Assembly (NCBI GenBank): GCA_945932315.1
Contig: CAMEPU010000005.1
Span: 1 to 32,077, forward strand
Origin: an uncultured Clostridia bacterium
Lineage (GTDB): Bacteria; Bacillota; Clostridia; Oscillospirales; Butyricicoccaceae
DNA: 32,077 nt
Direction of reading: 5' to 3'
Shown: one piece after another, positions 26,902-32,077 of the stretch
How the letters are laid out: each line of letters starts with the position of its first letter
How positions within the stretch are numbered: the stretch's first letter is position 1
Notes under the pieces: generated by a model
What the model saw: only the letters and a program-made list of their open reading frames with translations
Databases searched by the model: none
What the model was told of the DNA's origin: nothing
Made by a program: the position numbers and the translations under genes

Positions 26902-27624
26902 TTACATCCCGCGCAGGAAGCGCAGAACGGCCAGATTGAAACGGCCGGGGGCTTGGGCGGCGCAGAAGTGGCCTGCGCCCGCGATGGTCTCCCGGCGGAC
27001 GCGGGGCAGCGCCGCGGCGATGCGGTCGGTCTCGGCGGTGCGGATGAGGTCGTGCTCGCCCGTGATGACCAGCGTTTCGGCTTCAATGCGGGAGAGGTCG
27101 GAGAAGGTGACGCCGTAGCTGTGCACCATCAGGCCGAGCACGTCGCGCCGGTGGGCTGCTTCCGGGTCGCTCCTGCCCAGCAGGGAGAGCAGGCCGTAGG
27201 CCGGGTAGAGGGGAAGCTGCACCCAGGGCTGCACGCCCTCGAGCATGCGCACGTTCGCGCCGTTTAAAATGAGCTTGTCCACCCGCTCGGGCCAGCGCAG
27301 GGCGAAGGTCAGCGCGACGTTGCCGCCGTCCGAAAAGCCCAGAATGTGCGCCCGCTCGATCCCGAGCGCGTCCATCACGTCGAGCAGGTCCTCGGCCATC
27401 CGGCCGATGGAAAGCCCTTCCTCACCCGGCGTCGAGCCGCCGTGGCCCCGGCTGTCGACCGTGATCACCCGGTAAAAGTGGGAAAAGGGCTCAAACTGCG
27501 CGCGAAAATACAGGCCATCCTCCCCGTTGCCGTGCAGCAGGATGAGGGGCTCGCCCGCCCCCGCCTCCCGGCAGAGCAGGCTGGCTGTGCCGCTGGCGAT
27601 GCGATATTCCTGCATAACGATCAT
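26902..27624 (-). CDS. Alpha/beta hydrolase
   Basis: LILLHGNGEDGLYFRAQFEPFS, VDSRGHGGS, ILGFSDGGNVAL nucleophile elbow, GEHDLI, GAGHF. Confidence 0.88.
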   Translation of the reverse strand: MIVMQEYRIASGTASLLCREAGAGEPLILLHGNGEDGLYFRAQFEPFSHFYRVITVDSRGHGGSTPGEEGLSIGRMAEDLLDVMDALGIERAHILGFSDGGNVALTFALRWPERVDKLILNGANVRMLEGVQPWVQLPLYPAYGLLSLLGRSDPEAAHRRDVLGLMVHSYGVTFSDLSRIEAETLVITGEHDLIRTAETDRIAAALPRVRRETIAGAGHFCAAQAPGRFNLAVLRFLRGM

Positions 27625-29601: not shown

Positions 29602-30417
29602 TCAGAGCCGGTCGAGGAAGGAATGCCGCCCGGTATCGTCCCGCCAGCCGAGCACCTTTTTGGTGTCCACATTTTTGACCGCGTTCAGAATATTGGCCTC
29701 GATCTGCGGGTTCTGTGCGGCCAGTCCGGCGATCAGCGCCTTGATCTCGGCCCGCTTGGTGTCCTGCTCGCGCGCGGCCGCCGGGCAGGCGCAGGGCAGG
29801 AAGGTCAGTCCACAGTACGCCGCCCATTCCTTCACGGCGGCCTCGCGGGTGAAATAGAGCGGCCGGATGAGCTCCATCCCCTCGTAATTGGCGGCCGCCA
29901 GACGGGGCAGCATGGCCTGCACCTGGCCGCCGTACAGCAGCCCCATCAGCACGGTCTCGATTGCGTCGTCATAGTGGTGGCCGAGGGCGATCTTGTTGCA
30001 GCCGAGCGCCCGCGCCTGGGCGTACAGATTACCCCGGCGCAGTTTGGCGCACAGGAAGCAGGGGTGCTCGGGCGCGTGCCTGCCCGCGATGCGGAGGACG
30101 TCGGTCTCGAACACGGTCAGCGGCAGCCCGAGCCGCGCCATGTTTTCCTCGATGTGCCGGCGGTTCTCGGCCGGATAGCCCGGGTCCATCGCGAGAAACC
30201 GCACCTCGAAGCCGCCGCGCGCCGCGCAGTCGTCGAGCAGCAGGCCGAGCAGCGCCGAATCCTTGCCGCCCGAGATGCAGACCGCGATCCGGTCGCCCGG
30301 CCGCACCATCTCAAATTCCCGCAGCGCCCGGTTGAACGGGTTGCAGATCTGCCGTGCAAAGCGGGTGTGAACCGCCTGTAAAATTTCTTTACGCTCCATA
30401 TCTTTCCTCATTTTCAT
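29602..30417 (-). CDS. TtcA-family tRNA 2-thiocytidine biosynthesis-like ATPase (PP-loop)
   Basis: CISGGKDSALLGLLL PP-loop, CFLCAKLRRGNLYAQARALGCNKIALGHHYDDAIET; likely start at the internal MERKEILQ. Confidence 0.85.
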   Translation of the reverse strand: MKMRKDMERKEILQAVHTRFARQICNPFNRALREFEMVRPGDRIAVCISGGKDSALLGLLLDDCAARGGFEVRFLAMDPGYPAENRRHIEENMARLGLPLTVFETDVLRIAGRHAPEHPCFLCAKLRRGNLYAQARALGCNKIALGHHYDDAIETVLMGLLYGGQVQAMLPRLAAANYEGMELIRPLYFTREAAVKEWAAYCGLTFLPCACPAAAREQDTKRAEIKALIAGLAAQNPQIEANILNAVKNVDTKKVLGWRDDTGRHSFLDRL

Positions 30418-30512
30418 TGGTGAACATTTTCAGAATTTTCCACTACACGCGGACATGATTCCACACACGGAATACATTTTTGTATATAGTGACTAAATTT
30501 AGATATAACTAT

Positions 30513-30566
30513 TTATTCATTTCGTCCTATTCGCCGCTTGCAAAACCGCATACTCTGCGGTAAGAT
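30513..30566 (+). promoter_or_regulatory. Array promoter 1 with conserved upstream box
   Basis: TTATTCATTTCGTCCTATTCGCCGC + TTGCAA - 17 bp - TAAGAT. Confidence 0.8.
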
Positions 30567-30829
30567 AAAGACAGTTCAGGGAACGAAACACAGACCGCCG
30601 ATCACGAGATTTCCAGCTCCGAAGCATGGATTCACGGACGGGGGGATGGTGTGGAAGGGGGGGCGGCAAGCCCCCGCTTCCGCGATCCAATCATCGGATT
30701 TTCAAACTTTTTGAAGTTTGAAAATCCGGACGCAGCTTGGCGAAAGAATTTTCGACAGGCTGCGTTCAGGGAACTGAACCGAGAGCAAAAACAAACCACA
30801 GATTATCCCAAGAAAGGGGACCACAAATC

Positions 30830-30931
30830 ATGAAAATGTTCGATTACATCAAGGCGATTGCAGAAGTTGAGTATGAGTCCTCGCTGACTCGTCAGATCCA
30901 TAGAAATTCCGCCAACCGCAGCAAGCGCTGA
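30830..30931 (+). CDS. Small peptide 1 (33 aa), uncharacterised paralogue
   Basis: MKMFDYIKAIAEVEYESSLTRQIHRNSANRSKR; RBS AAAGGGG; same length and N-terminal pattern as two downstream ORFs. Confidence 0.75.
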   Translation: MKMFDYIKAIAEVEYESSLTRQIHRNSANRSKR

Positions 30932-31021
30932 AACCAAACGCCCGGCCATGTGCGGCGGGAAACTTCCCCCGCCTCTCTTATCATAAATCCAATCCGTTTC
31001 ATTCGTCTACTTCTTTTTAAA

Positions 31022-31056
31022 TTGTCCACTCCTTTTTCTACTTTCTACTTTCTCTT
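31022..31056 (+). repeat. CU-rich 3'UTR tract, copy 1
   Basis: TTGTCCACTCCTTTTTCTACTTTCTACTTTCTCTT, identical to the copy at 31474. Confidence 0.9.
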
Positions 31057-31062
31057 TAAGTC

Positions 31063-31094
31063 AGGGAGCCCGGCCGGATACGGTCGGGCTCTCT
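31063..31094 (+). terminator. Terminator hairpin of unit 1
   Basis: AGGGAGCCCGGCCG-GATA-CGGTCGGGCTCTCT then GGCGTTTTCC. Confidence 0.7.
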
Positions 31095-31176
31095 GGCGTT
31101 TTCCGTCCGGCACGGACAGGTGTCGCTGAGATAAAATGCTTTTTAGTGAATTATGCATAAAAACTTTTTCTATATT

Positions 31177-31230
31177 TTATTCATTTCGTCTTATTCGCCG
31201 CTTGAAAAAAGCCTGGGGCCGGAGTAAGAT
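31177..31230 (+). promoter_or_regulatory. Array promoter 2 with conserved upstream box
   Basis: TTATTCATTTCGTCTTATTCGCCGC + TTGAAA - 17 bp - TAAGAT. Confidence 0.8.
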
Positions 31231-31303
31231 AAAGACACCGTTGAGAGAACGGGCACAGCAAACGATCAGAAGTGTATCACCCGACGAAGGAGGATTCCCT
31301 GGC

Positions 31304-31405
31304 ATGCTGTTTTATGATTTTGTGCGCGCCATCGCCGATGGAAGGGTTGACGCGAATACAATTCACCGGCTCGTTCAGGAAGCCGACCTGCGCGAAAAGC
31401 GCTGA
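31304..31405 (+). CDS. Small peptide 2 (33 aa), uncharacterised paralogue
   Basis: MLFYDFVRAIADGRVDANTIHRLVQEADLREKR; strong RBS GAAGGAGG; the longer ORF call from 31136 would start upstream of the promoter and is unlikely. Confidence 0.78.
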   Translation: MLFYDFVRAIADGRVDANTIHRLVQEADLREKR

Positions 31406-31473
31406 GCGGCAACCCGACCAAATGCGGCAGACCCCCGCCGCTTTCCATATATTCTTTCTCCACCTTATTCATT

Positions 31474-31508
31474 TTGTCCACTCCTTTTTCTACTTTCTAC
31501 TTTCTCTT
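31474..31508 (+). repeat. CU-rich 3'UTR tract, copy 2
   Basis: TTGTCCACTCCTTTTTCTACTTTCTACTTTCTCTT. Confidence 0.9.
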
Positions 31509-31513
31509 AAAGG

Positions 31514-31546
31514 CGATGAGCCCGGCCGAATCGGCCGGGCTCATCG
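31514..31546 (+). terminator. Terminator of unit 2
   Basis: CGATGAGCCCGGCCGA-ATCGGCCGGGCTCATCG then TCTTTTTG. Confidence 0.85.
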
Positions 31547-31600
31547 TCTTTTTGTCGGGTTTTTGAATTGTGCAAGTATAACAAAAATACAGTTTGATTT

Positions 31601-31654
31601 TTATTTAATTCGTCTAATCTTTCGCTTGTCAAATTTATGTAAAAAGAGTAAGAT
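31601..31654 (+). promoter_or_regulatory. Array promoter 3 with (diverged) upstream box
   Basis: TTATTTAATTCGTCTAATCTTTCGC + TTGTCA - 17 bp - TAAGAT. Confidence 0.78.
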
Positions 31655-31716
31655 AGGTACAGTTCCGAGGGGAACGAAAGAAACGATAAAACACCACTTG
31701 AAAGGGGTCTTAATAT

Positions 31717-31818
31717 ATGAAGTTCTTCGAATCTCTCCAGACGCTGGCCGATATGCAGATGCAGTGCATGATGCCCGGCTATTACACCCGCAGCATCGAA
31801 AAGCGCCATCAGCGCTAA
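31717..31818 (+). CDS. Small peptide 3 (33 aa), uncharacterised paralogue
   Basis: MKFFESLQTLADMQMQCMMPGYYTRSIEKRHQR; RBS GAAAGGGG; 102 nt like the other two. Confidence 0.77.
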   Translation: MKFFESLQTLADMQMQCMMPGYYTRSIEKRHQR

Positions 31819-31892
31819 GAAAACCCCTGTTTTCTTAACCATTCCGGACAATCACGTCCGTTTTCCTTTTCTCACAAGCTGAGAAATCTCTT

Positions 31893-31914
31893 TTGTCCAC
31901 ACTCCTTTTTCTCT
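31893..31914 (+). repeat. CU-rich 3'UTR tract, partial copy 3
   Basis: TTGTCCACACTCCTTTTTCTCT, related to copies 1 and 2. Confidence 0.75.
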
Positions 31915-31923
31915 ACGAGCAGG

Positions 31924-31951
31924 CGCGCCTGACACCGCACGGTCAGGCGCG
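31924..31951 (+). terminator. Terminator of unit 3
   Basis: CGCGCCTGAC-ACCGCAC-GGTCAGGCGCG then TCTGTTCGTTTTTT. Confidence 0.85.
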
Positions 31952-32077
31952 TCTGTTCGTTTTTTAAAAGTTAATTATGCAACGGTATGAAAACGCCCGG
32001 CGCAGATGCCCGGGGGTCATAAGAAAGTAATATCGTATTTTTGCAGGAACGGCATGGCTTCGGTCATGCCGTTTCCT

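Follow-up and report, generated by a model that had tools for sequence, protein, structure and literature searches.

A two-dyad promoter module upstream of short-peptide genes points to a family-wide regulon in the Butyricicoccaceae

VcdRP of Vibrio cholerae is a dual-function RNA, in which VcdR pairs through four consecutive cytosines with targets that have been demonstrated (PMC8672173). The locus described here resembles it in comprising a predicted short transcript with a small ORF (29 aa in VcdRP) and, ahead of a Rho-independent terminator, a conserved 3′-proximal segment that contains C, and transcription would likewise be under shared control, exerted for VcdRP by the global regulator CRP (PMC8672173). 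In contrast to VcdRP, the tract is 30 nt of C and U, and the sequences are unrelated. By architecture VcdRP is the closest analogue, a matter of resemblance and not of membership. Small RNAs of Gram-positive bacteria that also encode a short peptide, SR1/SR1P (Bacillus subtilis) and RNAIII/delta-hemolysin, are named in PMC5521070. We found no sequence relation to either, and a further difference is that one promoter module is common to many of our units.

Rgg/SHP and ComR/ComS circuits resemble our units in that a short peptide gene is preceded by a conserved regulator box immediately upstream of its −35. However, our peptides mostly have a basic tail instead of a hydrophobic pheromone tail and, judged by eye, have no export signal; among the genes scanned, a subset of those neighbouring the inspected units, we recognised no RRNPP regulator. 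LsbB-type leaderless bacteriocins are peptides of 30 to 40 aa, usually cationic, with a helical N-terminus and no leader. The peptides described here are similar in all these respects but occupy a fixed chromosomal locus across species with dN/dS of ~0.1-0.2, and no immunity gene was noticed.

Three tandem peptide units upstream of ttcA

The DNA analysed, hereafter the window, is a stretch of 32,077 nt representing one entire contig (C5) of a 1.79-Mb genome that is 80% complete. Three tandem peptide units lie in it upstream of a divergent ttcA-like gene. Each consists of a promoter, a leader with a predicted hairpin near the 5′ end, a Shine-Dalgarno sequence (present before the ORF in all three), an ORF encoding 33 aa, and a CU-rich tract ahead of a very strong terminator. 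The predicted 5′ hairpins occupy the equal place in units 1 to 3 and have different stems. The features are as follows, O2 and O1 denoting the distal and proximal dyads; both were located with a matrix trained without the window.

29602..30417, −, ttcA-like PP-loop gene (tRNA thiolation type; Pfam PF01171, E 1.9e-13), the divergent neighbour marking the conserved locus
30480..30496, +, unit 1 O2 TTGTATATAGTGACTAA (dyad peak, column 11)
30513..30529, +, unit 1 O1 TTATTCATTTCGTCCTA (box 30513-30537)
30538..30566, +, unit 1 promoter TTGCAA-17-TAAGAT
30574..30584, +, unit 1 predicted hairpin near the transcript 5′ end GTTCAGGGAAC (fold)
30595..30763, +, unit 1 5′ UTR insertion of ~170-190 bp (repeat search), flanked by copies of GTTCAGGGAAC and containing a perfect 15-bp inverted repeat
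30830..30931, +, unit 1 peptide MKMFDYIKAIAEVEYESSLTRQIHRNSANRSKR, Shine-Dalgarno AAGAAAGGGG
31022..31059, +, unit 1 CU-rich tract
31060..31102, +, unit 1 terminator hairpin (fold, z −6.5)
31144..31160, +, unit 2 O2 TAGTGAATTATGCATAA (dyad scan)
31177..31193, +, unit 2 O1 TTATTCATTTCGTCTTA (box 31177-31201)
31202..31230, +, unit 2 promoter TTGAAA-17-TAAGAT
31238..31252, +, unit 2 predicted 5′ hairpin CCGTTGAGAGAACGG (fold)
31304..31405, +, unit 2 peptide MLFYDFVRAIADGRVDANTIHRLVQEADLREKR, Shine-Dalgarno GAAGGAGG
31474..31508, +, unit 2 CU-rich tract
31509..31556, +, unit 2 terminator hairpin (fold, z −8.4)
31568..31584, +, unit 3 O2 TTGTGCAAGTATAACAA, intact TTGT-N9-ACAA (dyad scan)
31601..31617, +, unit 3 O1 TTATTTAATTCGTCTAA (box 31601-31625)
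31626..31654, +, unit 3 promoter TTGTCA-17-TAAGAT
31662..31675, +, unit 3 predicted 5′ hairpin GTTCCGAGGGGAAC (fold)
31717..31818, +, unit 3 peptide MKFFESLQTLADMQMQCMMPGYYTRSIEKRHQR, Shine-Dalgarno GAAAGGGG
31891..31916, +, unit 3 CU-rich tract
31915..31966, +, unit 3 terminator hairpin (fold, z −10.0)

The insertion in the unit 1 leader resembles a repeat element. Just before the contig end, AGTTAATTATGCA (31969-31981) repeats the neighbourhood of the unit 2 O2 (31145-31157) and may be the remnant of a fourth unit.

The position upstream of ttcA is common to five sister species and to other genera. In the five sisters a contig end lies 1.4-2.1 kb from ttcA, with a 5S rRNA at this ttcA-side end in four of them and a 23S end in two. 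Their ttcA-linked promoter is homologous and gap-free from about −93 to the start, except for one base in genome G002, and is followed by one peptide (G001, G002, G005) or by two in one transcript (G003). In G004, a profile search found no peptide ORF in the ttcA unit; promoter, CU tract, and terminator are retained. The window copy is a tandem triplication at this conserved site. An alpha/beta hydrolase gene is found at window positions 26902-27624, ~2 kb beyond ttcA on the other side; in sister species a hydrolase-like gene lies between the peptide unit and the 5S rRNA, and this difference in position may mean that the neighbourhood was rearranged.

The initial annotation had described a TTGNNA-17 bp-TAAGAT promoter directly after a 25-bp box in all three units, and its coordinates and consensus proved exact. 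The −35 hexamers, TTGCAA, TTGAAA, and TTGTCA, start at 30538, 31202, and 31626, directly after boxes 30513-30537, 31177-31201, and 31601-31625; all spacers measure 17 bp, and the −10 is TAAGAT in each case (30561, 31225, 31649). The single-base difference reported between units 1 and 2 over ~25 bp corresponds to a box identity of 24/25, the remaining pairwise values being 17/25 and 18/25. Under a first-order Markov null, at least 17 matches have P = 3e-4 and at least 18 have P = 5e-5, and 23 or more were obtained in 0 of 200,000 cases. The genome-wide motif scan that had been proposed found TTCRTCYWATYYKYCGCTTG three times in the 80% complete source genome, at the window units only, and zero times when reversed. 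The box pattern with up to three mismatches followed by TAAGAT occurred in none of the 86 other genomes of the family, by which we mean, in all scans, the Butyricicoccaceae (NCBI lineage, with Butyricicoccus placed there). A chance resemblance or a common promoter background is ruled out by the null and the two scans. These exact patterns suggested a strictly species- or genus-specific motif, an idea overturned by the profile search described below. Two non-Butyricicoccus pattern matches in GTDB genomes (L089, L094) belonged to no recognisable unit. A CGAA direct repeat, previously thought to recur at about one helical turn, was rejected as a recognition feature, as the interval is 9 bp in units 1 and 2 and ~12 bp in unit 3, out of register, and the repeat is not the conserved symmetry.

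Near-identity of the boxes might reflect nothing but recent tandem duplication, with no special role for the box: the units stand in tandem, and the similarity of units 1 and 2 extends to the CU tract and the terminator. However, their conservation is mosaic. Units 1 and 2 are 96% identical over the box, 92% over the CU tract, and 81% over the −10 to +20 segment, against 59% in the −35/−10 spacer, 66% in the coding sequence, and 59% in the 3′ UTR, where shuffled sequences give 50-58%. The initial description of the surrounding DNA as otherwise divergent thus holds for the spacer, coding sequence, and 3′ UTR but not for the −10/+20 segment and CU tract. As the pieces between the conserved ones have diverged, the box owes its conservation to selection or conversion and not just to a recent origin. 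In addition, the module with equal spacing precedes non-homologous peptides in other genera. Simple recent duplication is rejected on the mosaic conservation, and we regard it as highly improbable. More plausibly, one ancestral unit upstream of ttcA gave rise to all three by tandem triplication, after which the promoter elements, the position of the 5′ hairpin, and the CU-rich 3′ tract would have been kept while the peptides diverged.

The two-dyad module and its putative regulator

A sequence-only model of eight ttcA-linked promoters (R1) gave weaker matches in other genera, many of which precede short ORFs on inspection. The module common to these promoters is made up of two 17-bp dyads TTRT-N9-AYAA, O2 followed by O1, and then a sigma-A-type promoter with a 17-bp spacer. 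Assuming that transcription starts ~7 nt after the −10, O2 extends from −93 to −77 (centre ~−85) and O1 from −60 to −44 (centre ~−52); the centres are 33 bp apart, or 35 in peptide subfamily C. In an alignment of 30 promoters, the TT, the T, the G of the −35, the GTA, and the T were invariant and the base before the −10 was always G, and conservation of the −35/−10 spacer was at background. With arms of either 4 or 6 bp, a symmetry scan of 45 start positions had its two highest peaks exactly at O1 and O2.

Read against this alignment, the 25-bp box is the promoter-proximal half of a family-wide module and is not unit-specific, its consensus in the window being a species-specific version of O1 plus linker. 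In the window species, O1 has lost its AYAA right arm (CCTA, CTTA, CTAA), and O2 is intact in unit 3. The shared drift of O1 may either predate the triplication or reflect a changed mode of binding. A matrix built from 22 training promoters, with the window and all sister ttcA-linked units excluded, placed the three units at the top of the 32-kb window (43, 39, and 35 bits; next, −11). Its upstream part alone scored them at 35, 32, and 26, followed by 9 for the opposite strand of unit 1's own site.

A refined model, R3, was used to scan 394 genomes of the order, some of them incomplete, the E-values of such sequence-only models being rough. Among 21 family matches at E ≤ 1e-6 outside the training set, 18 precede a 28-48-aa ORF with a Shine-Dalgarno sequence, compared with 5.6% of random sites; about half of these 18 are orthologous members of subfamily C and hence not independent. 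The other three matches are the ttcA-linked unit of G044, assigned by position, and two groES promoters. As the models also match groES promoters, part of the score reflects a generic strong A+T-rich promoter. The upstream motifs could be viewed as an extended core promoter, i.e., a UP element or contacts of an alternative sigma factor, with no dedicated regulator, and the A+T-rich stretches upstream of the −35, the invariant G before the −10, and the weak groES scores are consistent with it. We nonetheless consider this quite unlikely, given two like dyads at fixed spacing, conserved C and G within O1 that are atypical of UP elements, and the confinement of the motif to a few genes per genome.

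R3 found four matches in the source genome, namely, the three window units and a locus on contig C92 with a canonical O1 TTGTGTATTCCGTACAC and the peptide MKKNFREFLMSTAMFELSMDPATAKMFDRKSR. G003 has the ttcA locus and two loci on its contig C20, and in G029 three short-ORF loci are matched at E ≤ 1e-6. Several unlinked genes per genome are therefore preceded by equal dyads at fixed spacing, the pattern of a shared-operator regulon. We consider it probable that the boxes represent the O1 half of a two-operator promoter controlling a family-wide short-peptide regulon, in which the ttcA-locus RNA is probably a small RNA.

An activator on O1 and O2 is our preferred reading. A dimeric regulator would most likely bind the two 17-bp dyads, which would lie on the same helix face at a distance of about three turns, and recruit RNA polymerase to an ordinary sigma-A-type promoter (TTG-N20-TANNAT). 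Each promoter would yield a single short RNA that carries a small ORF and ends at a strong terminator. Both binding and activation are what we infer from the arrangement of the sites. The initial annotation is partly supported, in that a conserved regulatory region precedes further putatively co-regulated peptide genes, both elsewhere in the source genome and in different genera; the conserved symmetry is TTRT-N9-AYAA instead of CGAA. A textbook class II activator site overlaps the −35 and is centred near −41.5, and the proposed site of this type does not agree with the O1 centre at ~−52 under the start assumption given above. No regulator was found in the window, as first noted.

Repression, e.g., by looping or cooperative binding to O1 and O2 over strong constitutive promoters, would fit the near-consensus promoters. 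It would also fit subfamily B, where a LacI-family gene adjoins the unit in G001 (L145) and G002 (L169), with a homologue near the G007 unit (L160), and a LacI-type sequence CGTACACGTTTACG overlaps the O1-linker region. However, the sites lie wholly upstream of the −35 (−93 to −44), and the LacI gene was found beside subfamily B units only, with none near the window or the inspected units of subfamilies C and D, which makes a repressor unlikely. As the gene was not seen at the other inspected subfamilies, we read it as added local control in subfamily B. The subfamily B unit of G001 and G002 also lies beside a gene resembling a PiT phosphate transporter.

An O2/O1-like promoter, with e.g. TTTGTGCAATTCATA upstream of the −35 in L204, was also seen before a conserved protein of ~85-94 aa (..DFIEAVEnCKGNVfLxTdeGDxxNLKSR..LFRFNL..) in other families of the order (L204, L209, L211, L213). 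The two of these four that were scanned had no credible Pfam match.

Peptides and the CU-rich RNA

Most R3-linked short ORFs fall into several subfamilies of ~30-42 aa. Those seen at the module were A (ttcA-linked), MKFxxFLxxLAQA...; B, MKKNFSNFLxxxAMFELxxDP...; C, MMKGFFNDLVAARMLDLD...RKARR.AK; D, MNKFxKAxxxMSExxMxNxxYVRxL...; F, MNFFxKLxKTYVxxVxNAPYAMSVGKGKTMPRD; and G, MFRFxxKKxxxxA...ATIF. Of the two peptide loci on contig C20 of G003 (L222, L233), one has a tandem pair (MGIRNYLNALIESNM... and MKFKDFFNGMVELEMM...). A single peptide superfamily is not claimed, as profile comparison was too weak (hhalign probability 5-36%). Searches of Pfam, NCBIfam, PHROGs, and PDB gave no peptide match other than a weak one to DUF760 (E 0.0018) in a single member, phage and plasmid collections held nothing useful for the units, and the best Rfam matches at the units were far below the gathering threshold and not credible. 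Across the protein, RNA, and literature collections searched, the peptide gene set had no match. The predicted structure, one helix at pLDDT 71, was uninformative. The G001 and G002 peptides are 70-76% identical to that of G005, and among the three, computed dN is ~0.12 versus dS of 0.6-1.1 (dN/dS ~0.1-0.2). This low dN relative to dS indicates that the peptides look like real genes under purifying selection in these three sisters.

The ttcA-locus transcript carries its CU-rich tract before a strong terminator. The tract is nearly invariant, with a run of ~30 nt identical in all five sister species, and occurs once per genome. Retention of promoter, tract, and terminator without the peptide in G004 suggests that the RNA itself matters. 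Likewise, genus g4 (G043, G047, G049, also G045) has an RNA-only version of the locus, with the CU tract CACCTCTTTTCTCTTCTTCTC and a terminator. Because the RNA is kept in genomes that lack the peptide, it may have a dual function, and its CU-rich tract probably gives the ttcA-locus transcript a small-RNA activity as well. Predicted pairing of the tract with translation starts is stronger than with coding controls (−11.4 versus −5.6 kcal/mol), but shuffled tracts pair equally well. The affinity therefore reflects pyrimidine content, which by itself cannot explain the conserved base order, and a role as a specific anti-Shine-Dalgarno sequence was rejected on the same result. Hfq was found in five of six genomes of the genus and was not found in the incomplete window genome. 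Further candidate CU-rich small RNAs with terminators, matched by a model designated R2, were seen in the family (L137, L139, L134, L132), and L135 (G024:C2:125480-128566) seems to be a tandem array in which three or more short CU-rich RNA units, each with a strong terminator, have no obvious ORF.

Any function of the peptides, and any regulation by the RNA, is what we infer from these patterns. The RNA, rather than the peptide, might be the conserved product of the ttcA locus, a CU-rich small RNA that only sometimes carries an ORF. The peptide-less versions in G004 and g4, the 30-nt run identical across the sisters, and the distribution of Hfq argue for this, whereas the purifying selection on the peptide, the apparent lack of the tract in other peptide subfamilies, and the non-specific pairing potential argue against it, and we hold it possible but doubtful.

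Implications for the Butyricicoccaceae

The Butyricicoccaceae are a family of butyrate producers and gut commensals. Annotation usually overlooks ORFs of the size described here, and catalogues compiled without regard to function give no means of grouping them. It is an evenly balanced proposition that an undescribed Butyricicoccaceae regulator acts through paired TTRT-N9-AYAA sites on at least five dispersed peptide subfamilies and a peptide-optional CU-rich small RNA, with related motifs elsewhere in the order driving the ~85-aa protein. A promoter signature from which such genes can be predicted throughout a family of gut commensals provides an annotation rule. It would join otherwise unrelated peptides into one regulon, so that finding one regulator would make their function testable. 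The occurrence of the ttcA-linked RNA with and without an ORF in relatives represents a natural experiment on the gain and loss of a peptide by a putative dual-function RNA.
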